From assembly GCF_026672275.1 (NCBI RefSeq), contig NZ_JANQCD010000044.1:1-32844 (forward strand): a stretch of 32,844 nucleotides of DNA. The letters are read 5' to 3'. Below the pieces are notes generated by a model. The model was not told where the DNA came from, searched no databases, and saw nothing but the letters and a program-made list of their open reading frames with translations. Shown here in pieces: positions 7,446 through 29,654 of the stretch. Position numbers and translations under genes: made by a program. This DNA comes from Marinifilum sp. D737. Lineage in GTDB: Bacteria > Bacteroidota > Bacteroidia > Bacteroidales > Marinifilaceae. The stretch's first letter is position 1. Every line of letters starts with the position of its first letter.

Positions 7446-9767
7446 ATGATTAAAGTTCCAAGAAAAGTTATACTCCTGCTCATCCTAATTTTATTGGGAG
7501 CATTTGTAACACAAAGTCAGGCAGCAAGCCAGAAAACTCAAAGCCACGAAAAAGAGTTTAAGATAAAAGGAAAGATAGAGGGCTTAATGAACGAAGAGGG
7601 CGGATACGCTTTGTTTGGCGATCAGTATCCAAATGGATATAAGAGAGTAAAAGTTAATATGAATAAAGGAAAACTTTCTTATAAAGGAACAATAGAAGCA
7701 CCTACCGTTATAAAATTAAGTTTTAGAAATAAGAACCTTTCAAAAACAACAACAGGTGGCGGATACATACCAACCAATGCAACAACATTAATGTGTGTAA
7801 TTTACCCAGGAGCCAAAATTAAGGTGTCAGGTAAAATCACCGACTTTATAGATGCTTACCCAAGCGATGGAGGAGAAAACGATATACTTAAAGAGCTAAG
7901 CAGTAAATTGCATCCGGTCTTAAATAAATCGGTAAATATTAGTTTAGAACTAGATAAGAATAAAAAATTAACAGCAAAAGAGATCGCTGCTCTTAAAAAA
8001 ACACAAGAAGAATTAGGAACGCAAGCTCAAAGCATTAGAGTAGAGTTTTTAAAAAAACATGCATCATCGGTAGCGGGATTGTGGTTAATGGAAGATATGC
8101 TAGTGCGTTCGCAAATTAAAATAGAAGAAGTAGAAGAATTCCTAAAAGGAGTAGATGCAAAAAAATACGGAGAGTTATCATACCATAAAGCGCTAAAAGA
8201 TAGGGTAAAAGGATACAACTCAACCAAAATTGGAAATGTACTTAACTTTAAAACAAAAGCAACACTTAGTGGCGAAACATTCGATATAAAAGATCTAAAA
8301 GGTAAGTATGTAATTCTTGATTTTTGGGGAACATGGTGTGGAGCGTGTGTAAAGGGAATGCCTGGCTTAATGGAATTTAGAAATGCACATAAAGATAAAG
8401 TAGAAGTAATTGCAGTTAACTGTGGCGATAGCGATGAGAGATGGAGAAAATCTAAATTTACCACAGGATATAACTGGATACATGTAAAATCGGACAAGGG
8501 TGATAATAACCTGGCAAATAAGTTTAATGTACAAGGATATCCAACCAAAATAATAGTAGATCCAAACGGAAAAATTATTAAAAGACATGTAGGCGAAACA
8601 CCAAGCTTTTACGAAGAGTTAAAAGAACTTATGGGTCTGGAAACTGAAGCAAAAGGCGAAGATTTTACCATTACAGCAAATATTGAAGATATAAATTCGA
8701 CCGAAGGATCTTTCTATTTTCAAGAAAAAGGAAAGCCTAAAGGACGATGGATTAAATTCCCCATGCAAGGCGGTACAGTAAAGTATACTGGGAAGGTAAG
8801 CGAGCCAACAATAATTTATATCAACTTTACCGACAATAAAGTAAGAAAATACTCGAACCCATATAAAGCAGGTTACTTTATGTCGAATGTATCTTTATTA
8901 GGCTTTGTAGCCATACCCAATAAAGAAATTACAGCCGAAGGAAAAGCAAGCGATTATATAGAGGCTTATGCTAGCGGCGATCGTGAAAACGATTTAATGG
9001 CAAAACTTAATAAACAAGTGCACCCTTTGCTTAATAAAGTCATGAATAACTACTGTACACTTGGTGACAAATCCTTAAGCGAAGAAGAAAAAAAGCCTGT
9101 TGGCGAAGAATGCAATAAGCTTAACGAGAAAATATCGGCAATTAAATTGGCCTTTGTGCAAGAAAATATTTCATCAATAATAGGACTGTCAACGGCACGA
9201 AGTTTATTAAACAATCAGATCTCTTTAGAAGAAGCACCTAGTTACTTTGCTAAAATTGATAAGAAGTACAAAAACTCCATGTATTATACCCAATTAATGG
9301 ATAGGTACAAGCAGTTAATCGAAGAAAAAGAGAGTAAAGAAAAAACAGCAGAAGGAAAAGAATCTCCGGAGATTGTAACAAGCGAAAGCTATACGGGAAA
9401 AGCATTTTCCTTAAAAAGTTTAAGAGGTAAATATGTCTTAATCGATTTTTGGGGAACATGGTGTGGTGCTTGTATTAAGGGAATGCCAGAGATGAAAGCA
9501 TTTCACGAAAAGCATGCCGATAAATTAGAGCTTTTAGGTATTGCTGCTGAAAAAGGAGGTACCGATCGTTGGAAGTCAATGATTAAGAATAGAGGCTTTA
9601 ATTGGCATCAAATTCTTAATGGGAAAGATGATAAAGACTTTGTTAAAAAGTTTGGAGTTAGTGCATTTCCAACAAAAATACTAGTGTCACCTGAAGGGAA
9701 AATTTTATTAAGATATGTTGGAGAAGATGCAGAATTCTACAACAAGTTAGAAGAGCTTATCAACTAA
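7446..9767 (+). CDS. Exported protein with two TlpA-like thioredoxin units
   Basis: Predicted periplasmic thiol-disulfide protein of 773 residues made of two complete, similar halves. A signal peptide (about 1-26) is followed by a DUF4369-like beta domain (about 35-150), a helical linker, and a thioredoxin domain (about 268-400) with WGTWCGAC (Cys298/Cys301) and cis-Pro motif GYPTK. The second half (about 405-773) repeats this order, with WGTWCGAC at Cys673/Cys676 and AFPTK. Matching linker blocks such as FIDAYPSDGGENDI and YIEAYASGDRENDL show an internal duplication rather than two unrelated fused domains. TlpA proteins usually carry one such unit. It is followed by two more thioredoxin-like genes, each preceded by a hairpin. 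Whether it reduces, oxidises or isomerises its targets cannot be told. Confidence 0.9.
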   Translation: MIKVPRKVILLLILILLGAFVTQSQAASQKTQSHEKEFKIKGKIEGLMNEEGGYALFGDQYPNGYKRVKVNMNKGKLSYKGTIEAPTVIKLSFRNKNLSKTTTGGGYIPTNATTLMCVIYPGAKIKVSGKITDFIDAYPSDGGENDILKELSSKLHPVLNKSVNISLELDKNKKLTAKEIAALKKTQEELGTQAQSIRVEFLKKHASSVAGLWLMEDMLVRSQIKIEEVEEFLKGVDAKKYGELSYHKALKDRVKGYNSTKIGNVLNFKTKATLSGETFDIKDLKGKYVILDFWGTWCGACVKGMPGLMEFRNAHKDKVEVIAVNCGDSDERWRKSKFTTGYNWIHVKSDKGDNNLANKFNVQGYPTKIIVDPNGKIIKRHVGETPSFYEELKELMGLETEAKGEDFTITANIEDINSTEGSFYFQEKGKPKGRWIKFPMQGGTVKYTGKVSEPTIIYINFTDNKVRKYSNPYKAGYFMSNVSLLGFVAIPNKEITAEGKASDYIEAYASGDRENDLMAKLNKQVHPLLNKVMNNYCTLGDKSLSEEEKKPVGEECNKLNEKISAIKLAFVQENISSIIGLSTARSLLNNQISLEEAPSYFAKIDKKYKNSMYYTQLMDRYKQLIEEKESKEKTAEGKESPEIVTSESYTGKAFSLKSLRGKYVLIDFWGTWCGACIKGMPEMKAFHEKHADKLELLGIAAEKGGTDRWKSMIKNRGFNWHQILNGKDDKDFVKKFGVSAFPTKILVSPEGKILLRYVGEDAEFYNKLEELIN

Positions 9768-9784
9768 CCATTGTAAGGATTAAA

Positions 9785-9816
9785 AAGAGAACAATGAAGT
9801 TATTCACTGTTCTCTT
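9785..9816 (+). terminator. Terminator-like hairpin after double TlpA gene
   Basis: Stem AAGAGAACAATGA (9785-9797) and TCACTGTTCTCTT (9804-9816), with one A-C mismatch. It begins 18 bp after the stop codon. The T-run after it is weak, so termination may be partial, leaving some readthrough into the next TlpA-like gene. Confidence 0.6.
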
Positions 9817-9874
9817 GTAAAATTATTACTGCATTTTCTCCTGTAAAAATGGAGAAGGTGATTCAAAAAATGCA

Positions 9875-10387
9875 ATGAAGAAGCATATTCCTGTATTTTT
9901 CTTTTTCGTAATTGTTGCTCTTGCTCTTTTAAGTGTGGAGGCATATAATAGCAAACAATTTTATGCAGAGTCTGAAAAGCTTCCTGATCTTACTTTGAAA
10001 AAAATAAATGGTAAGATTGTTTCCCTCAGTGATTATCAGGGAAAAAAATTGTTTATCACTGTTTGGGCTACTTGGTGCAAGGGCGGTCGTGAAATGAAAC
10101 CAATGATTGATAATTCGAAGTTACAATTAAAAAGTATAGACAGCCTGGTGTTTATTGAGATCTCTCTGGATAGGAATATCAATGACTGGAAGGAGTATGT
10201 AAAGAAAGCACTATCCATAGGCACTCAGTTTATTACAGAAGAAAATGTGAAAAAAGTGATAAAGTCATTTGGAAGTAAAGGCATTCCTTTTTGTGTAAGT
10301 GTAGATGAGAATGGTAAATTCCGAACTAGTTTAGGGGGTACAACCGGAGTTATTGATGTGAGGAATATTATCGAAACTACCGATTAA
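9875..10387 (+). CDS. Small TlpA-like protein with degenerate CKGG site
   Basis: A 170-residue thioredoxin-fold protein, probably anchored in the inner membrane by an N-terminal hydrophobic segment (about 5-23) or exported through it. The fold is shown by LPDLTLKKINGKIVSLSDYQGK, the active-site region VWATWCKGGREMKP and the cis-Pro loop KGIPF. The usual CxxC is replaced by Cys68-Lys-Gly-Gly71, so the resolving cysteine is gone; another Cys follows the cis-Pro region (IPFCVS). A one-cysteine site could still form mixed disulfides or reduce glutathione-type or peroxide substrates, but it cannot act as a normal CxxC oxidoreductase. It lies between two TlpA genes with intact sites. Length is normal for a single domain. 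Confidence 0.85.
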   Translation: MKKHIPVFFFFVIVALALLSVEAYNSKQFYAESEKLPDLTLKKINGKIVSLSDYQGKKLFITVWATWCKGGREMKPMIDNSKLQLKSIDSLVFIEISLDRNINDWKEYVKKALSIGTQFITEENVKKVIKSFGSKGIPFCVSVDENGKFRTSLGGTTGVIDVRNIIETTD

Positions 10388-10449
10388 CCTTATGGCTTGT
10401 ATAAATGATAGATGGCCTTGTAATATCTTAATTGAATAATAAAACAGAA

Positions 10450-10481
10450 AGAGAAATGTTGTTGATGATTTTCATTTCTCT
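10450..10481 (+). terminator. Hairpin between two TlpA-family genes
   Basis: Inverted repeat AGAGAAATG (10450-10458) and CATTTCTCT (10473-10481) with a 14-nt loop, 25 bp before the next start. There is no strong T-run after it, so it may attenuate or stabilise the message rather than end it. Confidence 0.4.
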
Positions 10482-10505
10482 ATTCAAAAATAATCAAGAA
10501 ATAGC

Positions 10506-11903
10506 ATGAGAAATTTAACCGTGTTTGTAATGCTGCTGACTTTATTTGCCTGCAGTAAAAAAAATCCTAAAGAGGTAGTTTTTAAAGGACAAATTTCAAA
10601 TTATACAGGTGAAAATATCCTGTTAAGTTATGATGGGCAAATTGATACTGTTCTTGTTGGGGAGAATGGTGTTTTTCAAAAAATATTGCACTTCGAGAAT
10701 AATACTTTCGTTTTTTTGAGAGGAGATAAATTGGCAGGCCGTTTTTTTTTAATGCCTGGTTATGATTTGGAATTTACACAGGATGTAGATCGTATTGATC
10801 AGGGGATTAATTTTATCAATCGGAATGTTTGCGTTAGTGTAAATAAATATTTGATAGATAAATACGAATTGGAAGATCAGTTAAGAATGGATCGAAAAGA
10901 ATATTTCTCGATGGAAGAAGCTGAGTTTATTTCTAAAACAGAGGAGAATTATGACAAGAGAAGTGATCTTTTAACCAAACTTTTGGAGGATAATAAAAAA
11001 ATAGATCCGGTTTTTGTGAAAGAAGAAAAAGGATCTTTGAAGTATTCCATGTTGCTGAACTATCTTCAATATGAATCTTCACATGCGCGATATGTAAAAG
11101 ACTATGAATTTAAAGCTGGAGAAGCCATTTCAAAAAAGCTGACCCAGGAGGAACTCAATCGTTCAGACCTATTAAATGTTTCGGAATATAAATCGTATTT
11201 GGATGGTAGACTTAAAGATGCAGCATACCAGTATTATAAAGAACATCCGGAATATAAGGAAATAGAAGATGGTTATTACATCGCTATGTACGATCAATTG
11301 GCAGAGTGGAGTAGTACTCCTGAAATAAAAAGTTATTTAGCAGCTACTATTGCTGATGCAAGGGTGCGTTGGAGTATAAATGAGAATAGTCCGGTTTTGA
11401 AGATGTTCAGAAAATATTGTAGCGACGAAAAAGCTCTTAATAGAGTTAATGAAAAGGTAGCTTGCTGGATGAGGTTGTCAAAAGGTAAGGATGCATTTGA
11501 TTTTACTGGACAAACCATTGAAGGAAAGTCTATGTCTCTTTCTGATCTGAAAGGAAAATATGTTTATGTGGATGTATGGGCAACATGGTGCGGTCCTTGT
11601 TGTGGAGAAATACCATATTTACAAAAAACTGAAAAAGAATATCATGACAAAAACATTGTATTTCTTAGTGTATCGGTAGATCGAGATATAGATAAGTGGA
11701 AGAAAAAGGTAAATGATGATAAGTTAGGAGGAATACAAATAAATGTAGGGCAAAGAAATAGCATTAGTAAAGATTATATGATTACCGGCATACCAAGATT
11801 TATGCTTTTCGATAAGGAGGGGAAAATAGTAAGTGTAAATGCACCACGCCCTTCACAAAAAGAAAAAATAGAGAAACTTTTTAATTCGTTAAACGGATTA
11901 TAA
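10506..11903 (+). CDS. TlpA-family disulfide reductase lipoprotein
   Basis: Lipoprotein of 465 residues with a C-terminal thioredoxin domain. The signal ends in lipobox LFAC (Cys16). An N-terminal DUF4369-like beta domain (about 22-100) is followed by a long helical segment and a thioredoxin domain (about 330-465) with VWATWCGPCCGEIP (Cys362/Cys365, with an extra Cys366) and cis-Pro motif GIPRFMLF. This arrangement is typical of Bacteroidota TlpA proteins, which use electrons from an inner-membrane reductase to keep exported thiols reduced. It is the third gene of a TlpA run beside the SusC/SusD locus and ends at a strong shared terminator. The target protein is unknown. Confidence 0.9.
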   Translation: MRNLTVFVMLLTLFACSKKNPKEVVFKGQISNYTGENILLSYDGQIDTVLVGENGVFQKILHFENNTFVFLRGDKLAGRFFLMPGYDLEFTQDVDRIDQGINFINRNVCVSVNKYLIDKYELEDQLRMDRKEYFSMEEAEFISKTEENYDKRSDLLTKLLEDNKKIDPVFVKEEKGSLKYSMLLNYLQYESSHARYVKDYEFKAGEAISKKLTQEELNRSDLLNVSEYKSYLDGRLKDAAYQYYKEHPEYKEIEDGYYIAMYDQLAEWSSTPEIKSYLAATIADARVRWSINENSPVLKMFRKYCSDEKALNRVNEKVACWMRLSKGKDAFDFTGQTIEGKSMSLSDLKGKYVYVDVWATWCGPCCGEIPYLQKTEKEYHDKNIVFLSVSVDRDIDKWKKKVNDDKLGGIQINVGQRNSISKDYMITGIPRFMLFDKEGKIVSVNAPRPSQKEKIEKLFNSLNGL

Positions 11904-19166: not shown

Positions 19167-19289
19167 TTATAGGCGAAATTTCAATAATTCTGAAATGGTT
19201 TTGTAATATTCATGCTCAATTTCAAGATAAGTGTCAACACTTTCGTAATAGTAAATATTTTCTGTAAGGTATTCAATGCTTGATATTTA
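19167..19289 (-). other. Cut-off C-terminal tail of the efflux outer membrane gene
   Basis: The stop codon TAA at 19287-19289 is followed in the same frame by 39 sense codons and another TAA at 19167-19169. The translated tail begins ISSIEYLTENIYYYESVDTY and ends in ELLKFRL, which is the normal C-terminal helix region of TolC-type proteins. With one codon in place of the stop the protein would have 391 residues. Confidence 0.85.
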
Positions 19290-20342
19290 GCCGTGTGTTA
19301 AAGCCTTTTGTAAAAGAGTGTCGTAACGTTTTTCTGTAAAAACTCCTGCATACTCTTTCATACTTTTCTCAAGACTCAAAAAGTTTCGAAAAAGTTTCAA
19401 AAATTTATTTTCTAACTCCATTTTGCCAATTAAATACTCTTCCCTGCTAAATTGTTCTAACAACCTCGCTCTTTTAACCTTGTTCTTATTTTCCCACAAT
19501 GGAATGCTAATCCCAAGTTTTATTCCATTGGCTTGCTTCATGATATCCGAATTCAAATAGCGATATCCAATGCTAAATTTTGGTAGCGAGTTTGTTTTTA
19601 CAAGAGAAGTTTCTTTTGCAGAAATTTTCTCTTTAGTGCTTAAGAGCTTCAGTTGTGGATCTGCATTTAAGGATTGGGAAAGCAAATTCTTCATCTCCTG
19701 GTCAATACTCATTAATGGATACTCATGTATGTTGAGATCAACTTGCTTTCCTCCGTTTAGTTTAATAAGATCATCGATAAGATTAGAAACTTTACGATCA
19801 ATCATTTTTAATTGATTTGCCGTATTCAAGCGAAGCATCTTAATTTTATTGGCTTCAAGAATAGTTGCATCTCCTTCTTCCAATCTTTTTTGAAACAAAT
19901 CATTTAACTTTTCTGCACTGCTTAAACGGTTATTTAATTCAGCTTTTTGTTTGTTGTAATAAATTAGCTTAATGCAAAGCAGTTTTGCTTCCAACAAAAT
20001 GTCTTGTCTCGATATTGCTTTGTAGTTTTCCGTATTGGCAATTTTTGCTTTTTTTAGCTGATTTTTATATAGATAACTCATTGGAAAATCAAAGCTTTGA
20101 CTTACCAATATTTCATATGGCTTTCCTTCGTCAGACGAAAAGCTTTTTTCCCATTCCAGTTCAGGATTAGCCAAATTGTTTTGCGCTTTGAACCCTAGAT
20201 TCTGCGCTTCAAAAAACTGTTCATTTGCTTTTAATACAGGATTGTTTTTTTCAATGGCAGAAAGCACATCCTGAACAGTATTCTGAGCCTTTACGGAAAG
20301 GCCCAGAATTGATATCATGATTGCGAATACAATTTTATTCAT
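19287..20342 (-). CDS. TolC/CusC-type outer membrane efflux protein, truncated by in-frame stop
   Basis: Outer-membrane channel of a metal efflux system, 351 residues as read. The signal peptide (about 1-19, ending KAQ) is followed by NTVQDVLSAIEKNNPVLKA and long helical segments (for example about 95-185 and 215-345) typical of the outer membrane efflux protein family. The first 8 bp overlap the end of the pump gene, so they are translated together. The frame ends after ALTHG, while the following in-frame 39 codons encode the expected end of the family. One base change (such as GAA to TAA) would explain it, so this is either a recent nonsense mutation or a sequence error. The missing part belongs to the helical barrel, so activity is doubtful. 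Confidence 0.88.
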   Translation of the reverse strand: MNKIVFAIMISILGLSVKAQNTVQDVLSAIEKNNPVLKANEQFFEAQNLGFKAQNNLANPELEWEKSFSSDEGKPYEILVSQSFDFPMSYLYKNQLKKAKIANTENYKAISRQDILLEAKLLCIKLIYYNKQKAELNNRLSSAEKLNDLFQKRLEEGDATILEANKIKMLRLNTANQLKMIDRKVSNLIDDLIKLNGGKQVDLNIHEYPLMSIDQEMKNLLSQSLNADPQLKLLSTKEKISAKETSLVKTNSLPKFSIGYRYLNSDIMKQANGIKLGISIPLWENKNKVKRARLLEQFSREEYLIGKMELENKFLKLFRNFLSLEKSMKEYAGVFTEKRYDTLLQKALTHG

Positions 20343-23300
20343 CTTCTTGTTTTTTCTTGTTTAACACCAAATAAACGATTGGAATAACATAGATATTAAG
20401 CAGGGTAGAGGTAAGTAAACCACCCAATATCACAACCGCCATTGGACTTTGAATTTCATTTCCAGGCTGATCGCTTGCCAAAGCCATTGGGATTAACGCC
20501 AAGGCTGCTGTTAATGCGGTCATTAAAATTGGACTTAATCGATTCACAGATCCATTTAAAATGATCTCTTTTAGCTGTAAGCCTTTTTCTTTTAAACTCT
20601 GGTAGTTCGATATCAGAAGAATTCCATTTCTGGTTGCAATACCAAATAAAGTAATGAAACCAATAATGGCAGGAATACTTAGCATACCTGAAGTGAAGAA
20701 AATGGTAAACACACCACCAATTAGAGCCAAAGGAAGATTTAGCATGATAATTCCAGCCAATTGCGAACTTCTAAACTCCTGAAATAACAGCAGAAAGATG
20801 ATTAGCAAACTGAAAATTGAAGCGATCATTAAGACTCTTGATGCTTTTGCTTCACTTTCGAATTGTCCTCCATATTCAATTCTGTATCCCTCGGGCAGTT
20901 TGATATTTTCATCAACACTTTTTTGGATGTCTGCTACAATACCACTCAAATCTCTATCGGCTACATTAGCTGAGACAACCAACTTACGTTGTACATTTTC
21001 TCTGCTTATTGTATTGGGACCCGACAAAGATTGAATGTCAGCTACGTAACTGAATGGTATTTTTTTTCCATCCCAGGTATCGATTAGTGCATTTCTTATG
21101 GCTTCAATACTGCCACGATTCTCTTCGTTGTATTTCACTACCAGGTCGAAAGCTCTGATACCTTCAAATACATCAGAAACCTTAGCGCCGCCAAAAGCCA
21201 CATGAATAAATTCCGAAAATTGAGTGATGGAAATGCCATATTTTGCCAACATATCTCTTCTTGGTTTAATTCTTACCTGGGGAATTTCTACCTGCTGTTC
21301 AACGTTTACATCCACTACACCTTCGATAGGTGAAATAGATGTTTTAATTTGATTCGCAGTTTGAAACATGAGATTCAAATCATCGCCAAAAATTTTGATT
21401 GCAATATTGGCTTTGGTACCCGAAAGAATGTGATCAATTCTATGACTTAAAGGCTGACCAATGGCAAAGTTTACTCCTTGAATTTGATTTAACTTCTCAC
21501 GTACCTCCTGCAGAAATTCTGATTTGCTACGATTTGTCAGGGTAAATGGAACTTCTATTTCAGAGGTATTTACACCAAACGAGTGTTCATCCAATTCTGA
21601 ACGACCTGTTCTTCTGGCTGTCAATCGAACTTCAGGAATGGTAAGAAGTGCCTCTTCAGCCAGGACCTTAACTTTGTTTGATTCTTCGAGAGCAATTCCA
21701 GGTTTGGTAATGGCAGTAATCGTTAATGATCCTTCATTAAAATCAGGCAGGAAATTACGCCCAAGATTTGTTAAAGTAATAATGGATGCAATAAATAAAA
21801 TACCAGCACCAGCCAAAATCAATTTCTTATGATTTAGTGCTCTTTGAAGCGAGTTCTCATATCCTTTATTTAAACGAGATACCAACCAACTTTCTTTACT
21901 TTTTTTGTCTAACATTTTATCGCTTGTAAGCATGAAGCTACATAGAACAGGAGTCAGTGTAATGGCTACGATTAATGATGCAAACAAGGCAACGATAAAT
22001 GCAATACCAAGTGGTTGTAGCATTCGTCCTTCCATCCCGGTAAGGAAGAAAAGAGGTAAAAATGCAGCAATAATAATAAAGGTTGCATTAATAATTGATG
22101 AACGAATCTCGCAAGAAGCATCGTAAACCACTAGCAATGGGTTTTTTCGCTCTTCTTTTGGCAGAAGGTGATTTTGCCTCAATCGCTTGTAAACATTTTC
22201 CACATCGATAATGGCATCATCTACCAAGTCACCAATGGCAATTGCCATACCTCCAAGGGTCATGGTATTAATGGTAATCCCTAGAAATTTAAGAGTAATT
22301 ACTGTTACCAATAAGGAAATTGGAATCGCCAAGAGTGAAATCATAGTAGTCCTGTAATTCATTAAAAACAGGAACAGAATTACAATAACAAAAACCGATC
22401 CTTCCAGTAAAGCCTTTTGTACATTGCCAATGGATGAATTAATAAAATCCGATTGACGGAAGATGTGTGTATTTACATTTACTCCCTCGGGCAATGATTT
22501 TGCGAGCTCTTCAATCGAAGCATCAAGTTTTTCTGTCAATTTTAGAGTGTTAACGCCAGGTTGCTTTTTAACGGTTAGTAAAACCGATTGTTGAGCATTT
22601 ATGGTTCCCAAACCAATTTTTGGAGCGGCTGCCGCTTTCACTTCAGCAATGTCGCTAATTCGGATGGGTACATTATTGTACATTTTTACAACCGAATTGC
22701 CTAGCTCCTCAAAATCGGAAGTTCGGGCTATTCCTCTAATGTTGTACTGATTTCCATATTCGTTAATGAATCCACCAGCCGAGTTTTGATTCGTTGCTTC
22801 AGCTGCTTTCATCAACTCATCGATACTTACATTGTAGTATCTCATTTTTTGAGGATTGGCAAGAATCTGATATTGTTTGTATTCACCGCCAATCACAACA
22901 ACCTGGGCAACCCCATTAATGGCAAGCAATTGCGGTCTGATGGTCCAATCGGCAATGGTTCTTAACTCCATTGGGTCAACATTATCCGATTGAAGACCAA
23001 TCATTAATACTTCGCCCATAATTGAGGATTGAGGTGCAAGGGTTGGATTACCAGCACCTTCGGGTAACATCTCCGACAATGGCATTAGTTTCTCACTAAC
23101 AATTTGTCTGGCTTTGTAAATATCGGTTCCCCATTCAAACTCAATCCAAACAATCGAGAATCCTGCCGATGAGGATGAACGTAATCTTCTAACATCAGTA
23201 GCTCCATTTACGGCTGTTTCTATAGGAAAAGTAACAAGTTTTTCCACTTCTTCCGGCGCCATACCGTGAGCTTCGGTCATAACAACCACTGTTGGAGCTG

Positions 23301-23427
23301 TTAAATCCGGAAACACATCCACATCCATGTTTAATGTAGTGTAACTACCGCCAATAATTAGTAAGGCAGAAACAAACATTACAAGAATGCGGTTGTGCAA
23401 TGCATATTGTATGATTTTATTTAGCAC
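20335..23427 (-). CDS. Heavy-metal efflux RND pump (CusA/CzcA family)
   Basis: Inner-membrane proton-driven pump of 1030 residues, the motor of a tripartite metal exporter. The N-terminal membrane helix (about 12-32) is followed by PDLTAPTVVVMTEAHGMAPEE, a heavy-metal RND hallmark, and by the fourth-helix motif GDLVDDAIIDVEN (about 399-411), whose Asp400, Asp403 and Asp404 fit proton relay residues. Two large periplasmic loops and a second set of membrane helices (about 540 and 850-1020) complete the usual duplicated RND plan. Length is normal. It follows the adaptor gene after 45 bp and overlaps the outer membrane gene by 8 bp. The metal (Cu/Ag versus Co/Zn/Cd/Ni) cannot be decided without structural alignment of the binding site. 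Confidence 0.95.
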   Translation of the reverse strand: MLNKIIQYALHNRILVMFVSALLIIGGSYTTLNMDVDVFPDLTAPTVVVMTEAHGMAPEEVEKLVTFPIETAVNGATDVRRLRSSSSAGFSIVWIEFEWGTDIYKARQIVSEKLMPLSEMLPEGAGNPTLAPQSSIMGEVLMIGLQSDNVDPMELRTIADWTIRPQLLAINGVAQVVVIGGEYKQYQILANPQKMRYYNVSIDELMKAAEATNQNSAGGFINEYGNQYNIRGIARTSDFEELGNSVVKMYNNVPIRISDIAEVKAAAAPKIGLGTINAQQSVLLTVKKQPGVNTLKLTEKLDASIEELAKSLPEGVNVNTHIFRQSDFINSSIGNVQKALLEGSVFVIVILFLFLMNYRTTMISLLAIPISLLVTVITLKFLGITINTMTLGGMAIAIGDLVDDAIIDVENVYKRLRQNHLLPKEERKNPLLVVYDASCEIRSSIINATFIIIAAFLPLFFLTGMEGRMLQPLGIAFIVALFASLIVAITLTPVLCSFMLTSDKMLDKKSKESWLVSRLNKGYENSLQRALNHKKLILAGAGILFIASIITLTNLGRNFLPDFNEGSLTITAITKPGIALEESNKVKVLAEEALLTIPEVRLTARRTGRSELDEHSFGVNTSEIEVPFTLTNRSKSEFLQEVREKLNQIQGVNFAIGQPLSHRIDHILSGTKANIAIKIFGDDLNLMFQTANQIKTSISPIEGVVDVNVEQQVEIPQVRIKPRRDMLAKYGISITQFSEFIHVAFGGAKVSDVFEGIRAFDLVVKYNEENRGSIEAIRNALIDTWDGKKIPFSYVADIQSLSGPNTISRENVQRKLVVSANVADRDLSGIVADIQKSVDENIKLPEGYRIEYGGQFESEAKASRVLMIASIFSLLIIFLLLFQEFRSSQLAGIIMLNLPLALIGGVFTIFFTSGMLSIPAIIGFITLFGIATRNGILLISNYQSLKEKGLQLKEIILNGSVNRLSPILMTALTAALALIPMALASDQPGNEIQSPMAVVILGGLLTSTLLNIYVIPIVYLVLNKKKQEDE

Positions 23428-23472: not shown

Positions 23473-25011
23473 TTAATGTTCGTGAGAATGAGCTGGCAAT
23501 GATCCTGCAAGGGAAGCAAGTTTCACAAAATAAGCACCTTCGCTAACCACTCTTTCTCCTGCACGAAGACCTTTAATGATTTCTACCTCACGACCGTTGT
23601 CGGCGCCTATTGTAATAAATCTTTTCTCAAAGCTTTCTCCTCCGGTTTGCACAAATACATACTTTAAACCCTGATCTTCAAGAATTGCCGACTTTTCGAT
23701 GTGCAAAACATTCCTGGCATTTTCAGATTTCAGATAAACCTCCACAAACGATCCTGAGTATAGTTCAGGGGTTAGATCCAATTCGAAAAACAATGGAGTA
23801 GTGTAATCATCCTCATGAATGTCTTTTCCATAGGCTATCATTCTTCCATTTAACTCTTCGGTGCTAAATACCTTATTGCGATAAGGAAGTTTAAAGTTTG
23901 CCGATTTGATATTAGAAAGTTCTTTTAAATGCTTTTGGTAAACATCAGCTTTCAGCATCAATTTTGAACCTTGATCTACTTTGGCAAGTACGCTGCCTTT
24001 TTCAACATATTGACCTTCGTTCACAAATACCTCGCAAACAAATCCGTTTACCGGAGAAAGAATGGAAAGTCCTCTGTTATTATAGTTTTTGTTGATACTG
24101 TTGAATTTAACCTTGGCATTTTCGTAAGCCGATTTAGCTTCTAAAAATGTTTTTTCCGTTACAATTTTATCTTCTCGCAAAGTGCTTGCTCTATCGAACT
24201 CAGCCTTGGCTTTTTCTAGTGCCAGTTTTGCTTCGGTATATAGGGTAGACAGGTTGTCACCAGCCAATCCTTTCCCGGTAATGATAAATAATGAAGTGTT
24301 CTTGTCAACTGTTTTACCAGCAACAATATCGGTAGAACTAAAATGAACTACACCACTGGTTTTGGCAACTACTTGCTTTTCCATATTAACAGCAGGTTGC
24401 AGAGTGCCGGTTGTTTTGATAATGTTTTGGAAGTTTGAATTTTTAACTTCAGCAGTTGCAAAATCAATTTTCCAGGCTTGTTCTTTTAAAAAGCTAATTT
24501 CATGATCACTTAATGTTTCCTGAGCAGCTGCCTTATCTGCTTCTTCATGGTCCTTGTAAACAGGGATGTTTTTAGCAACGAACTTTTCTTTGCCATACTT
24601 CGAATTTACCTCAAATACCAAGGTTGCTGAGCCAGCCTTTTTAGGCATTAGTGCAGGTGTAAAAATACCATCTCTGGCAGGCGTATTTACCGTGTTCGAG
24701 TAACCTTTTCCTGCAACCATTAAAATAACTTTAACGCTTCCTTCGGTGTAAGGTTTGTAGGTTTTAAGATTGGTTAAATGTGTAGTAAACTTCGAAACAT
24801 GATCCAGCATGAGTTTAGGAAACTCCACGAATAACTCTGTATTTTCGTTGTACAAAGTTAAACTCATTGTTGAATGATCCTCTTCATCATGTGCTGCGTG
24901 AGTATCGGGGCCATGTGCGTGTCCGCCATGATCGTGCCCATGCGAATTGTTATTTGGTTTACATGCTATTAAAAATGATAAGGCTAAGCTTATCCAGATA
25001 TATCGTTTCAT
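23473..25011 (-). CDS. Periplasmic adaptor lipoprotein of metal RND efflux, His-rich ends
   Basis: Membrane-fusion protein linking the RND pump to the outer membrane channel. The 512-residue product has a lipobox LIAC (Cys17) followed by a His-rich stretch HGHDHGGHAHGPDTHAAHDE (about 24-43) and ends in HSHEH. In between are an extra N-terminal beta domain (about 50-160), the barrel-sandwich and lipoyl-like parts (GTLQPAVNMEKQVVAKTSG and LSILSPVNGFVCEVFVNEGQ), a coiled coil (about 255-325) and a C-terminal beta-barrel and membrane-proximal domain. His-rich ends suit metal capture and are known in CusB/CzcB-type adaptors. It heads the three-gene pump unit, 194 bp downstream of a His-rich lipoprotein gene. 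Confidence 0.93.
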   Translation of the reverse strand: MKRYIWISLALSFLIACKPNNNSHGHDHGGHAHGPDTHAAHDEEDHSTMSLTLYNENTELFVEFPKLMLDHVSKFTTHLTNLKTYKPYTEGSVKVILMVAGKGYSNTVNTPARDGIFTPALMPKKAGSATLVFEVNSKYGKEKFVAKNIPVYKDHEEADKAAAQETLSDHEISFLKEQAWKIDFATAEVKNSNFQNIIKTTGTLQPAVNMEKQVVAKTSGVVHFSSTDIVAGKTVDKNTSLFIITGKGLAGDNLSTLYTEAKLALEKAKAEFDRASTLREDKIVTEKTFLEAKSAYENAKVKFNSINKNYNNRGLSILSPVNGFVCEVFVNEGQYVEKGSVLAKVDQGSKLMLKADVYQKHLKELSNIKSANFKLPYRNKVFSTEELNGRMIAYGKDIHEDDYTTPLFFELDLTPELYSGSFVEVYLKSENARNVLHIEKSAILEDQGLKYVFVQTGGESFEKRFITIGADNGREVEIIKGLRAGERVVSEGAYFVKLASLAGSLPAHSHEH

Positions 25012-25205: not shown

Positions 25206-25475
25206 TTAATGTTTGTGTCCGTGGTCGTGATCGTGGTCATGTCCATGATCGTGACCTTCTTCGTGCTTGGTACTGTCAACATCAAACTCCTCTTGGTCAT
25301 GTGCATCCTTATCATGAGAGTGAGAATGAGCTCCATCCCCGTGGTCATGATCATGATCGTGATCATGTCCTTCATGAGAATGAATTTCTTCTTTTTTCTC
25401 TGATTTTTTACCTGCATTACCACAGGAGGTAAGTACTAGTCCACAAATGGATAGGACAAATAATAATTTTTTCAT
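25206..25475 (-). CDS. His/Asp-rich metal-binding lipoprotein
   Basis: An 89-residue lipoprotein with a signal MKKLLFVLSICGLVLTSC (Cys18) and a mature part built almost only of His, Asp, Glu and Gly. It has 20 histidines, many in HDHDHDH runs. Such sequence binds Zn, Cu, Ni or Co at many sites and probably buffers metal in the periplasm or on a membrane surface. It stands upstream of the metal efflux genes on the same strand. Its first 20 residues closely match those of the Cys-rich lipoprotein at 27089-27388, which points to a common origin with different tails. The DNA of the tail is full of short GATCAT/CATGATC-type repeats. No named family is recognised. Confidence 0.85.
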   Translation of the reverse strand: MKKLLFVLSICGLVLTSCGNAGKKSEKKEEIHSHEGHDHDHDHDHGDGAHSHSHDKDAHDQEEFDVDSTKHEEGHDHGHDHDHDHGHKH

Positions 25476-25661
25476 AGGATTGAAATTTGAGTTAGCTTGT
25501 AGATGTCACATGGCAATTCACTATAGTATACCAAGTGAAATCTCTACAACTTTTGTTATAAATAATTAGAATGCTTTATGTATGATTTTATTGTACTATA
25601 ATATCTATAAATATGATACAATAATATCAAGGCAACTTTAATAAGTTGTTGAATTTAAGCC

Positions 25662-26075
25662 TTAGGCTAAGAATGAACTGGGCGGACCTCTCCTGTGAGG
25701 AATGAACCTGAGTGGTTCAGGAGTTAATTTTTGATTGCGTAATTTAAAGCTTTGAAGCCTTTGAGTTTCTTCACAATCCAACTGAATGTTATCCGACTGC
25801 AAAAATACCTTGTAGGCATTATCTTTCTGTACTCTATTATGAGTTAGAATACAACATGTTTCAGCATTTGCTTCATGAGAATGATTCCAATGAATACCAT
25901 TGTGTTGGTGTGTATTGGCAGCATGTCCATGATGATGAACCTGAATTACTGAAACATGATGGTAATCATCAATTTGTTGTAGATGATGATTATGAGGAAT
26001 AATATCATGAGCCAACAATACCAGCATTGGTATTATCATCGTTAAGCACAAAATATAACTTTTCAAATTCCTCAT
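25662..26075 (-). CDS. His-rich exported protein of unknown function
   Basis: A 137-residue protein with an N-terminal hydrophobic segment (about 6-23, ending LLAHD) followed by a His-rich part: HDIIPHNHHLQQIDDYHH and VHHHGHAANTHQHNGIHWNHSH. A CC pair and one later Cys follow, and then a basic C-terminus. Proteins like this, with an IPHxHH motif near the membrane, occur beside metal-resistance genes in Bacteroidota, but I cannot name the family with certainty. It is the first gene of the run leading to the efflux operon, 186 bp from the next gene. It probably binds metal outside the cytoplasm; a role as sensor or chaperone is possible but not shown. Confidence 0.75.
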   Translation of the reverse strand: MRNLKSYILCLTMIIPMLVLLAHDIIPHNHHLQQIDDYHHVSVIQVHHHGHAANTHQHNGIHWNHSHEANAETCCILTHNRVQKDNAYKVFLQSDNIQLDCEETQRLQSFKLRNQKLTPEPLRFIPHRRGPPSSFLA

Positions 26076-26159
26076 TTACGAAAATGTTTGCGACAAATAT
26101 AAATTTTCAAAAATAAAAATACAATACCTATATCATATGATTATAATTTCGTTAACAAA

Positions 26160-26187
26160 AAATCCATGAAAAATGCTTCATGGATTT
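26160..26187 (-). terminator. Terminator of the acetyltransferase gene
   Basis: Perfect 11-bp inverted repeat (arms 26160-26170 and 26177-26187, loop 6 nt) followed on the minus strand by TTTTTTG. It starts 25 bp after the acetyltransferase stop. Confidence 0.85.
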
Positions 26188-26211
26188 AGTTGAAATAAAA
26201 TTATTTAGCTC

Positions 26212-26871
26212 CTAATACAATTCATGGCTAATTTTTCCTTCGAGCTTTTTAGCAGGATTTCCTACATAAACTCCCCATTCTTCGGTTTTTTGTTTTGTTA
26301 AGCTGGCACCCATAGCAAGTAAAGTGCCTTGTGCCAAGTGCGAATAATCGCGGATGGTTGCATTAACGCCAAAAAAACAATGCGACTCTATGGTGCAGTG
26401 TCCCGACATTACAACATGCGATGTGAAAAATACATGATCTTTTATCACACCATGATGTCCAATGTGATTGCCACTCCAAAGTACTACGTTATTGCCAATT
26501 TTCGTGAAAGGCTGTAAAGTGTTATCCTCAAGAATAAAACAGTTTTCGCCTATTTCGTTACCACATACCGTCGCCTTGGAGCTGATGTATGAGATGTATT
26601 CATAGCCTTTTTCTTTTCCCGCAAGGTATACTTTCTCTCTTAGCTGATTCATGTTCCGTCCTGTCATAGGAGCAAACAATTTGTATTGGCTTGGCGGATA
26701 TTTATCTTCCAAATTCTCGAAAGCAACCACTGGCAGTCCTTTAAAGGTATCTTCTTTAAGATATTCTTGATTTACTGTGAAGGCAACTACTTCGTGCTCA
26801 CTATCGTTCTCCAGATACCAATGAGCCAATTCGGCGGTATCCAATATTCCGAAAATAATAACTTTAGCCAT
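26212..26871 (-). CDS. NeuD/PglD-like sugar O/N-acyltransferase
   Basis: Predicted acetyl-CoA-dependent acyltransferase with a left-handed beta-helix. I place the start at 26871, giving 219 residues beginning MAKVIIFGILDTAELAHWYL, because the PglD/NeuD family begins this way; a frame extension to 26922 exists but lacks family similarity. The N-terminal Rossmann-like part (about 1-75) would bind the sugar nucleotide. The hexapeptide-repeat region (about 85-200) contains GNHIGHHGVIKDHVFF, whose paired histidines fit the catalytic site, and the C-terminus has VYVGNPAKKLEG. Such enzymes modify amino sugars for surface glycans. No glycan genes are nearby, so its pathway is open. Ends at a clear terminator. 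Confidence 0.85.
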   Translation of the reverse strand: MAKVIIFGILDTAELAHWYLENDSEHEVVAFTVNQEYLKEDTFKGLPVVAFENLEDKYPPSQYKLFAPMTGRNMNQLREKVYLAGKEKGYEYISYISSKATVCGNEIGENCFILEDNTLQPFTKIGNNVVLWSGNHIGHHGVIKDHVFFTSHVVMSGHCTIESHCFFGVNATIRDYSHLAQGTLLAMGASLTKQKTEEWGVYVGNPAKKLEGKISHELY

Positions 26872-27038
26872 GATGAAATTTGTTTTAGGTGAATGATTCT
26901 GGTGTTTTGTGATAACATACAATAGTTGTGAATATTGTAGATTATTTTGTTATCCTATTTAAATTACTGAATATCACAATGCAAAACAAATTTGATTTTG
27001 TATGATTAGGAATAGGTACTTGGAAAAACGTAAATAAA

Positions 27039-27068
27039 AAAAGGTCGCAGATAAACCTGCGACCTTTT
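27039..27068. terminator. Strong terminator after Cys-rich lipoprotein
   Basis: Perfect 12-bp stem AAAAGGTCGCAG (27039-27050) and CTGCGACCTTTT (27057-27068), loop ATAAAC. On the minus strand it runs into a T-run (A-run at 27034-27042), ending the gene at 27089. Confidence 0.9.
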
Positions 27069-27088
27069 ACTTTTCCTTGTATGTAAGC

Positions 27089-27388
27089 TTACGATTCTTT
27101 GCTACATTCTTTTTTGCAATCACTTTTGCATTCTGTTTTTGCTTCTGCCTTGTGATGATCACACTCTCCTGAGCATTTCTTTTCTGTAGTTTCTGCAGTG
27201 GCTTCAGTTTTTGTACCATGTGCACAACCTGTACATTCACCTTTGCATTCTTCTTTTTTCTCAGCAACTACTTCAGTTTTTTCTTTTGAACAACAAGATT
27301 TTTCTGATGTAGCTTCTTTTTTAGTTTTGTTTCCACAAGAGCTTAGTACGAATCCGCAGATTGCGATTGCAAATAATAGTTTTTTCAT
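27089..27388 (-). CDS. Cys-rich metal-binding lipoprotein
   Basis: A 99-residue lipoprotein with signal MKKLLFAIAICGFVLSSC (Cys18) and a mature part rich in Lys, Glu and Cys. Besides the lipobox Cys there are ten cysteines, arranged as CC, CKGECTGC, CSGEC and CKSDCKKEC, plus a few His (CDHH). This suits binding of soft metals such as Cu(I), Ag, Cd or Hg through thiolates. The signal region and the SCGNxxKK start of the mature part are nearly the same as in the His-rich lipoprotein at 25206-25475, so these are likely paralogs with different tails. It has its own terminator. The acetyltransferase gene lies between it and the metal operon. No named family is recognised; stable thiols would need reducing partners outside the cytoplasm. 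Confidence 0.85.
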   Translation of the reverse strand: MKKLLFAIAICGFVLSSCGNKTKKEATSEKSCCSKEKTEVVAEKKEECKGECTGCAHGTKTEATAETTEKKCSGECDHHKAEAKTECKSDCKKECSKES

Positions 27389-27689
27389 TTTTCTGATCTA
27401 TTTAATAAATAATAAATTCCCCATTGTTTAACGAAGCGTGAATATATCTGTTATTTGCGGGTTTTGCAAGCTCAACAAAAAACAGATTTGTTAAAAAAGT
27501 ATTAACACATTTCTCTTTATGATTTCTTTTTGCCAAAAGAAAAGACAATAAATATATAAAATAAATCAACTTAAAAGCTTGACATATAAATATAAAAATG
27601 CTAAATTGGTGTATTGCATAATAAAAAGAGATGCGTTAAGTGCATCATGAATCTTAAAGAAAATATTTGTTTTTTCTGTAAAACTGGGG

Positions 27690-28823: not shown

Positions 28824-29654
28824 ATGAGAGAATTAAAAAAGTTAAGCTTGATTTCAATTTGCCTGTTAATTGGTTTTATTGCAAATGGACAAATTCAATG
28901 GATGGATTCCTTTGAAGACGCGATGGTAATTGCTAAAGCACAGAACAAATTAATTATCGTGGACTGTTGGGCCAATTGGTGTGGTCCGTGTAAGAAAATG
29001 GATGAAGATGTATGGGAAAAAGAGAGCATGAAAGAATATGCTGATAAGTTCGTGTTTGTTAAGTTAGATTTAAGTTCTAGTTTTTCTAATCGATATTTCC
29101 AAGTAGATGCTATTCCAAAAATCTTTGTTGCTGATGCGTGGAACAATCAGTTTGAATCCAAGACGGGATATAAGCCTCTTAATACAATGAAGAATTTACT
29201 TAAGGCTTACAGTTTTTCTTTGGAAGATATTTATAAATCAACAACAGAATTTAAGGAGGATGATGAAAATATTGATAAGGCATTGCAATTAGCAATGTGT
29301 TATCAGGAAAAGAGTACAGTGGTTGAGCATGATGCTAAAAAATCTCTTAAATATAAAAGCCGAATGTGTTTTAAGCAGACTGAGAAATTGTTGAAAAAAT
29401 CGAAGAATAAGGATTTATCGCAAAAAGTACTGATATTATCTTGCTTAAATAAAAGTGGTAAGAAAGCTTTAAAAGTTTTAACTTCTTGTAAGCCGAGCAA
29501 TGAAGAGAATGAAAATTTGAAAGCAGCTCTACTCACGAGAATTTATTTGTCTCTCGAACAAGTTGATAATGCTAAAGCGCAATATGCAAAAATAAAAGAC
29601 TTGCAACTTCCGTATTATGATTTTATTGCATCGGAAAGAAAACAGTTGCAGTAA
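28824..29654 (+). CDS. Exported thioredoxin-fold protein with helical tail
   Basis: A 276-residue protein with a signal peptide (about 1-22, ending NGQ) and an N-terminal thioredoxin domain (about 25-140) of the thioredoxin_7/DsbD-gamma-like type. The active site is DCWANWCGPCKKM (Cys53/Cys56), and the cis-Pro loop is DAIPKIFV. The rest (about 145-276) is helical and resembles TPR-like repeats (DDENIDKALQLAMCYQEKST and NAKAQYAKIKDL), a common tail for this group in Bacteroidota. It would reduce periplasmic disulfides. It is not linked to the TlpA cluster at 7446-11903 and stands alone, convergent with the next gene. Confidence 0.88.
   Translation: MRELKKLSLISICLLIGFIANGQIQWMDSFEDAMVIAKAQNKLIIVDCWANWCGPCKKMDEDVWEKESMKEYADKFVFVKLDLSSSFSNRYFQVDAIPKIFVADAWNNQFESKTGYKPLNTMKNLLKAYSFSLEDIYKSTTEFKEDDENIDKALQLAMCYQEKSTVVEHDAKKSLKYKSRMCFKQTEKLLKKSKNKDLSQKVLILSCLNKSGKKALKVLTSCKPSNEENENLKAALLTRIYLSLEQVDNAKAQYAKIKDLQLPYYDFIASERKQLQ

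Follow-up and report, generated by a model that had tools for sequence, protein, structure and literature searches.

Bacterial metallothioneins such as SmtA and MymT are cytoplasmic, and metallothioneins are not usually expected outside the cytoplasmic membrane because thiols tend to oxidize there. Csp1 is described as having a Tat signal and a four-helix-bundle core and as binding 13 Cu(I) per monomer (PMC7558416). Ten His residues of SilE were implicated in Ag(I) binding (PMC2365173), and CzcI of P. stutzeri was proposed to deliver zinc to CzcB (PMC10393844). The window analyzed here is the whole of a 32,844-nucleotide stretch of Marinifilum sp. D737 (Bacteroidota, Marinifilaceae; contig NZ_JANQCD010000044.1 of assembly GCF_026672275.1). 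It encodes two small lipoproteins, one His-rich (HisLP) and one Cys-rich (CysLP), in the neighborhood of a heavy-metal pump of the resistance-nodulation-division (RND) type. The initial annotation of this DNA had read them as hard- and soft-ligand versions of one modular periplasmic metal buffer. The explanation favored here, to which we give an even chance, is that the two N-termini have one origin and that tails and attachments differ, with HisLP acting as a pump accessory and CysLP as a thiolate sink.

The two genes are the following:

25206..25475, minus strand: HisLP, a His-rich lipoprotein of 89 amino acids, built as His arm, H-D-QEEFDVDST, His arm
27089..27388, minus strand: CysLP, a Cys-rich lipoprotein of 99 amino acids, built as MKKLLFAIAICGFVLSSC plus a Cys/Lys/Glu-rich tail

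Both open reading frames (ORFs) were confirmed at these positions on the minus strand, and the residue counts of the initial annotation held. HisLP contains 20 His and, in addition, 2 Cys; the 12 Cys of CysLP comprise one in the signal peptide, one in the lipobox and ten in the tail, accompanied by 3 His. The annotated interval 25206-27388 contains two further genes (25662-26075 and 26212-26922). M. flexuosum DSM 21950 has an identical CysLP (100%). Both proteins start with a predicted lipoprotein signal, i.e., a basic n-region, a hydrophobic h-region and a lipobox Cys near residue 18, which reads MKKLLF...LTSC or LSSC in the window, and the predicted lipobox pattern is kept in all 17 CysLP and 15 HisLP sequences inspected.

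The N-termini of HisLP and CysLP are identical at 16 of 23 residues, and at 18 of 29 (62%) over a longer stretch. When the own genome was searched with CysLP, HisLP was the sole significant extra match (E 2.4e-5; next 0.84). None of 48 background N-termini reached 16/23 (best 10 to CysLP and 12 to HisLP); this family background consisted of the lipoproteins of the window and most Marinifilaceae stretches, with 22 CysLP/HisLP rows removed. Among 23 lipoprotein-like N-termini from 400 kb of M. flexuosum, none of 253 pairs exceeded 12/23. Thus, the shared start exceeds the family background. The objection that it is only a generic signal did not hold within the family; at the level of the class, elements of it are generic. 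Nine of the first 23 codons are identical, so that any duplication linking HisLP and CysLP would be old. A recent DNA duplication or gene conversion was not supported, given the same codon count together with a similarity within genomes that is no higher than that between genomes (values given below).

The difference between the tails was borne out as well, and they are unrelated. Profile-profile alignment of CysLP and HisLP covered columns 1-28 only, with 99% probability and nothing beyond, and the tails of 14 of 14 non-hybrid HisLPs aligned with CysLP tails no better than shuffles did (17 HisLPs compared, 14 non-hybrid and 3 hybrid, leaving out those of G256, G270 and G271). The hybrids belong to genus g17, in which three of five species (G020, G030, G254) carry a HisLP with a 4-Cys block directly after QEEFKVDST; the HisLPs of G255 and G256 are without the block. 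A full CysLP occurs in none of the five species. G256 has a 42-amino-acid ORF with little beyond the shared N-terminus (L120:10477-10605); this second, short HisLP-like ORF adjoins a 1391-amino-acid ORF that we take to be Cas9-like. When the hybrid Cys blocks were aligned with the CysLP tail of M. caeruleilacunae, 0, 10 and 1 of 500 shuffles were as good (G020, G030 and G254, respectively). This match suggests that a Cys module has moved between the two lipoproteins. The tail modularity put forward in the initial annotation is supported, and the naturally occurring His+Cys hybrids of these three species strengthen it.

HisLP immediately precedes CzcB in all 18 family genomes in which it occurs, and its adjacency to a metal RND system was thus confirmed. 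A pump-linked QEEF His-rich lipoprotein was defined here by a lipobox, two His-rich arms, a QE[ED][FYI] core and a gene adjoining czcB, all of which are found in HisLP. Over 14 sequences the Q and the first E of the core are invariant and the remainder is nearly so, while the signal peptides diverge. Core variants are QEDF in L081, QEEI in L082 and QEEY in L135, and the His two positions before the core Q is absent in L083, L135 and L137. In a class-level search with CzcB, 17 of 198 genomes matched at E 1e-25, the own genome included. From the 16 others 13 were taken, omitting the three weakest, and 12 stretches were usable, as L079 ends before the upstream region. Six of these 12 stretches from outside the family have a small His-rich lipoprotein with a QE[ED][FI] core directly beside CzcB; having been found via CzcB, they are no independent test of the linkage. 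A search of the class with the HisLP profile gave 28 matches in 26 of 295 genomes: the own HisLP, six sequences used to build the profile, three new ones with the core, and 18 other proteins, which lacked the core in the part inspected and were dropped from the HisLP count. L129, L130, L132 and L133 are the same genes as in the CzcB-neighbor set. All three new core-bearing HisLPs have CzcB and CzcC within the 1.5-kb flank.

The class-wide linkage to the pump, the conserved core and the divergent signal peptides indicate that HisLP is an old pump-linked family, and that its likeness to the start of CysLP is a trait of Marinifilaceae. HisLP is probably a metal-binding accessory of the pump. A structure search with the HisLP profile gave a best match of only E 0.038. 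No Pfam or NCBIfam match of HisLP lay above cut-off; weak matches across both lipoproteins included PFF1_TM, GPR15L, SA0632 and PG1828. Other small His-rich lipoproteins, with repeats of the GDGHNH/GDGHEH type and no QEEF core, were seen in L144 and L145, the former beside a weak CzcB match.

The genes follow one another on the minus strand as CysLP, NeuD-like acetyltransferase, HDIIPH...RGPP protein, HisLP, CzcB, CzcA, CzcC. The features accompanying the two lipoprotein genes are:

27438..27469, minus strand: promoter-like element of CysLP, TTG-N20-TATATTCAC
27039..27068, minus strand: intrinsic terminator of CysLP directly 3' of the gene, a 13-bp stem followed by a T run
26212..26922, minus strand: NeuD/PglB/VioB-like acetyltransferase (TIGR03570 E 2e-39, below cut-off)
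26160-26187: terminator-like hairpin after the acetyltransferase gene
25662..26075, minus strand: His-rich HDIIPH...RGPP protein, its gene apparently at the head of the pump operon
23473..25011, minus strand: CzcB-type RND adaptor (TIGR01730 E 1e-36, above cut-off)
20335..23427, minus strand: CusA/CzcA-family heavy-metal RND pump, CzcA (TIGR00914 E 5e-251, above cut-off)
19287..20342, minus strand: CzcC-type outer-membrane channel, 351 amino acids (Pfam OEP E 7e-20)

Promoters of Bacteroidota are reported to have TTTG near -33 and TAnnTTTG near -7 (PMC7366714). With the pattern TTG-N18..22-TAnnTT[TC][AGC], which has a chance rate of 0.08 per 120 nt in the window, a promoter-like element was found in 13 of 17 CysLP genes, its TTG lying 80-100 nt before the start. 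Eleven of the 13 read TTG-N20-TATATTCA, and one of the four genes without the element has only 76 nt of upstream sequence. The conserved -7 element of CysLP (27438-27469) is TATATTCAC and not TAnnTTTG; it is possibly read by another sigma factor. In 15 of 18 cases, the HDIIPH gene is preceded by a promoter of the type TTG-N19/20-TATATTTG, with the TTG 47-49 nt before the start. The same pattern showed no excess before HisLP (1/15 in 250 nt) or CzcB (1/18). These rows include near-identical relatives, so that the counts are not independent. The promoter before HDIIPH and the lack of an excess before HisLP and CzcB point to one operon HDIIPH-HisLP-CzcBAC, and HisLP seems to be transcribed together with CzcBAC from a promoter one gene upstream.

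The terminator of CysLP was predicted to fold with -18.8 kcal/mol (z -5.2), and 0 of 200 shuffles were as good. In several Labilibaculum, an opposite-strand gene of 456-457 amino acids, presumably a MATE-like transporter, lies beside CysLP, between CysLP and the pump operon where the operon is present. A single operon for both lipoproteins was rejected in view of this intervening gene and of the predicted promoter and terminator of CysLP. A regulon sharing the CysLP promoter was rejected too: the genome has a single copy of the exact pattern, the one at CysLP, and two of its reversed control. Hard and soft versions of one buffer are not supported in the form first proposed. CysLP has its own promoter and terminator, it occurs with neither a CzcB match nor HisLP in two genomes (G009, G266), it is separated from the pump operon in those Labilibaculum, and its tail Cys number falls as low as 3.

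The metal of the pump was approached through its sequence signatures. The Met triad of CusA is given as M573/M623/M672 (PMC3637150). In the window pump, this Cu/Ag triad of the CusA type (heavy-metal efflux subfamily HME4) is absent, the aligned residues being T571, T621 and H666. The Zn/Co/Cd/Ni signature DFG-DGA-VEN of HME1/HME2 in transmembrane helix IV was not found either: the window pump reads AIGDLVDDAIIDVEN, in which VEN and the D aligned to CusA D405 are present and DFG and DGA absent. The His tails, and the lack of the Met residues in the pump, favor divalent ions as a guess at the metal. In Bizionia, also of the Bacteroidota, one of four CusA-like pumps is reported to keep the Met triad, and the same report gives negative searches for Csp1 and CusF (PMC11213822).

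Of 56 family genomes, 18 were found to have HisLP and 17 to have CysLP; the two occur together in 12, and 33 lack both. CysLP stands alone in five genomes (G009, G025, G265, G266, G267) and HisLP in six, i.e., G004 (80% complete) and the five species of genus g17. For these counts, weak HisLP-type matches in open frames of 233-457 amino acids and a CysLP-type match in a 723-amino-acid frame were set aside unread or nearly so. CysLP is present in five genera of the family, and a scan reaching close relatives only returned 13 CysLP loci, all from Marinifilum or Labilibaculum. No CysLP was detected by profile search among 294 other genomes of the class. This search gave 11 matches in 10 of 295 genomes, two of which were the pair of the window, and none of the other nine is a CysLP (small acidic lipoproteins L156, L161, L163 and L164; the HisLP L160; and L157, L158, L159 and L162). 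The match in L158 (1501-1746) is a small Cys/Lys-rich exported protein of 81 amino acids with 5 Cys that ends in GGCCSKDK...; it comes from another family of the class, has a differently built signal and may be a convergent relative in kind. CysLP lies a few kb from the pump in 15 of 17 genomes. Co-occurrence with metal genes, which the initial annotation had named as its test, was thus found throughout for HisLP (18/18) and failed for CysLP in 2 of 17 genomes.

The signal peptide of CysLP is nearly invariant, with on average 21.7 of 23 residues identical between CysLPs as compared to 16.9 between HisLPs, and 16 of the first 18 positions are invariant over 14 sequences. Length (71-110 amino acids), charge and Cys number vary. 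A signal peptide (27320-27388 in the window) that is constant across genera in front of a diverging mature tail is the reverse of the usual pattern. The mature tail holds 3-12 Cys, with 8-12 in 12 of 17 CysLPs and a CC pair in all 17. CysLP is no QEEF-type His-rich lipoprotein, as none of the 17 has QEE and the mature tails contain 0-4 His. Tail Cys numbers were 3, 8, 9, 10, 10, 10, 10, 11, 11, 12, 12 and 12 in genomes with HisLP, and 3, 3, 5, 5 and 11 in genomes without it; since the low counts come from related genomes, mostly Labilibaculum, this association is a hint only. Over six pairs, codon retention at identical residues was 0.67-0.78 for CysLP versus 0.44-0.60 for its neighbors and 0.55-0.62 for HisLP. 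Within the first 23 codons, the 29784-30383 gene retains 12-15 of 15-18 and CysLP 14-16 of 20-21.

A search of solved structures gave no match to CysLP at E up to 1. The PG1828 model (NF050142, cut-off 50 bits) scored 19.6 for the CysLP of the window and 29.9, 24.9, none, 23.2 and none for five others, where none means that E 0.1 was not reached. For the acidic CysLPs of L074, L057 and L054, the PG1828 E values were 7e-7, 2.5e-5 and 8.4e-5. Some of the proteins that the CysLP profile matched in the class are small acidic lipoproteins (59-65 amino acids), and two of these exceed the PG1828 cut-off. The model is loose: it gave 36 matches below threshold in the own genome, and 12 of 14 control genomes were matched as well.

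Judged from composition, either tail would bind metal. For CysLP, a link to metals is plausible and a thiolate metal sink is the best guess. A close rival, for which we nevertheless see somewhat less than an even chance, holds that CysLP has no metal role. It would be an ordinary small lipoprotein of the envelope, possibly with PG1828-like ancestry, with a selected signal peptide and a drifting charged tail that carries Cys in some species, and would stand beside the pump by inherited gene order only. The almost invariant signal peptide in front of a tail variable in length, charge and Cys number is in line with this, as are the separate promoter and terminator, the presence in G009 and G266 with no match to CzcB, the small acidic lipoproteins matched by the CysLP profile in the class, the codon retention above that of neighbors and HisLP, and the match of acidic members to PG1828 below cut-off. 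The sub-threshold PG1828 matches make an origin from an ordinary small lipoprotein a live alternative. However, most CysLPs have 8-12 mature Cys and all have the CC pair, three g17 species carry a comparable Cys block within their pump-linked HisLP, PG1828 is a loose model, and the codon signal may be a start-of-gene effect, as the 29784-30383 gene retains as much. Much less probable, and indeed hardly to be expected, is a thiol/disulfide buffer in which CysLP would work with secreted thioredoxin-like proteins, e.g., that of 28824-29654. Such a gene is close by in the window and in the stretches of five relatives (L047, L048, L051, L052, L065), and CxxC occurs in 5 of 17 CysLP tails, including that of the window (CTGC). 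The gene was not found in the other CysLP stretches, which are mostly from Labilibaculum and include short ones and ones that begin close to CysLP, and 12 of 17 tails have no CxxC.

Several observations weigh against the favored explanation. CysLP is present in G009 (one contig) and G266 with no CzcB match in the genome at E 1e-20, five of 17 CysLPs combine only 3-5 mature Cys with an acidic tail, which a dedicated thiolate sink would not predict, and the acidic CysLPs of Labilibaculum have PG1828 as their best, sub-threshold match in three of five scanned (23-30 bits; cut-off 50). Of the 12 usable CzcB stretches from outside the family, 6 have no HisLP. Whole hybrid tails were matched by 7, 9 and 5 of 300 shuffles (G020, G030, G254), and the match of the hybrid blocks is partly compositional, as reversed blocks score 53-61 versus 61-70 forward. 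Similarity of the two N-termini is no higher within than between genomes (15.6 vs. 15.4 of 23), and in a permutation 888 of 10000 were as high, or 3950 of 10000 on distinct pairs. Pieces of the start, chiefly SCGN(K/N)T, recur on unrelated, more distant lipoproteins: a 150-amino-acid lipoprotein in the order-level relative G051 is identical to the CysLP start at 10 of 23 residues, and the nine proteins besides the own pair that the CysLP profile matched in 295 class genomes (E 1e-4 or better) reach at best 12/23. These pieces speak for a rival in which the likeness of the N-termini is due to convergence or to the commonness of such signal peptides among these bacteria. This is improbable in our view, as no background N-terminus of the family reached 16/23 and HisLP was the only other significant match of CysLP in its own genome. 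A more far-reaching version of the modular idea appears doubtful, if less so than convergence. It supposes a Marinifilaceae cassette in which one signal-peptide module can bear metal-binding tails of the His or the Cys kind in exchange for each other. In some species of one genus a single pump-linked protein would unite both tails, and in others they would be distributed over two genes, of which the Cys copy would have acquired a promoter of its own and turned into an envelope protein that is tethered to the membrane and resembles metallothioneins.

According to the explanation of one N-terminal origin with divergent tails and attachments, HisLP would be a lipid-anchored His-rich accessory of the CzcCBA pump, co-expressed from the promoter upstream of the HDIIPH gene. 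Its low-complexity His arms would most likely bind a divalent metal of the Zn/Co/Ni/Cd class, which HisLP may hold for, or hand to, the His-rich N-terminus of CzcB, with the QEEF core as a docking or spacer element. CysLP would most likely have arisen in Marinifilaceae through duplication of HisLP or exchange of the signal peptide and, expressed alone, would most likely be a membrane-tethered thiolate sink for soft metals. CzcB (23473-25011) has a lipobox that is immediately followed by a His-rich stretch.

Further observations concern the neighboring genes. The acetyltransferase gene (26212..26922) is apparently an unrelated passenger between the two lipoprotein genes; it is located elsewhere in the stretch of Marinifilum sp. 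N1E240, and its relatives begin at the codon matching 26871 (219 amino acids). CzcC has 351 amino acids in the window versus 390-392 in the Marinifilum, Labilibaculum and g17 relatives inspected. The HDIIPH protein (25662-26075) is a czc neighbor without assigned function that seems to open the pump operon. At 7446-11903 of the window, three consecutive thioredoxin/redoxin-like proteins are encoded beside FecR and a SusC/SusD-type pair, in which SusC is presumed from its plug domain.

Literature searches, partly judged by title, returned no description of a His-rich lipoprotein at czcB in Bacteroidetes or of the Marinifilum and Labilibaculum genes considered here. Among the literature on periplasmic metallothioneins and on cysteine-rich or histidine-rich lipoproteins, none on Bacteroidota was found by title. 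If the favored explanation is true, it adds to the czc operons of Bacteroidia a His-rich lipoprotein that is undescribed according to these searches, and it makes CysLP a candidate for storing metal by thiols at the outer face of the cytoplasmic membrane. With split, hybrid and lost states all occurring in nature, a comparative set for the role of each tail is at hand.

In comparison with known systems, HisLP would belong to an already known kind, the small exported metal-binding helpers of efflux pumps. It resembles SilE/PcoE in being a small exported protein, a candidate for metal binding, that is encoded next to a CzcCBA-type efflux system. Unlike these, HisLP is a lipoprotein in which DH/GH repeats flank a QEEF core, and its pump is without the CusA Met triad. 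The SilE/PcoE family was absent from the Pfam/NCBIfam matches of HisLP at E up to 1, the presence of its model in the libraries not having been checked. With CzcI and CzcE, HisLP would share the role of a periplasmic helper of a czc system; neither family was among its Pfam/NCBIfam matches, no direct comparison of the sequences having been made. The HDIIPH protein resembles DUF6769 (PF20558) in its place in the operon, a His run after a hydrophobic start and a C-terminal RGPP/RAPP, and DUF6769 proteins stand beside CzcB elsewhere. It differs from this family in having no Pfam match at E up to 1. Of six HDIIPH-type relatives that occupy this operon position and were scanned, three match DUF6769, and hhalign gave 91.8% over 43 C-terminal columns only; the HDIIPH protein is possibly a distant relative of DUF6769.

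CysLP is a small lipoprotein with a start similar to that of the PG1828 family. It differs in that none of six CysLPs scanned passes the cut-off of that model, and the two above-cut-off PG1828-type proteins inspected have, unlike CysLP, no Cys beyond that of the lipobox. Like Csp1, it is Cys-rich and exported, but its signal is of the lipobox and not the twin-Arg type, its tail is of low complexity, and it has no sequence match among solved structures. No metallothionein model was among its Pfam/NCBIfam matches. CysLP shares small size and Cys richness with the bacterial metallothioneins SmtA and MymT and differs from them as an exported lipoprotein with a variable Cys number.

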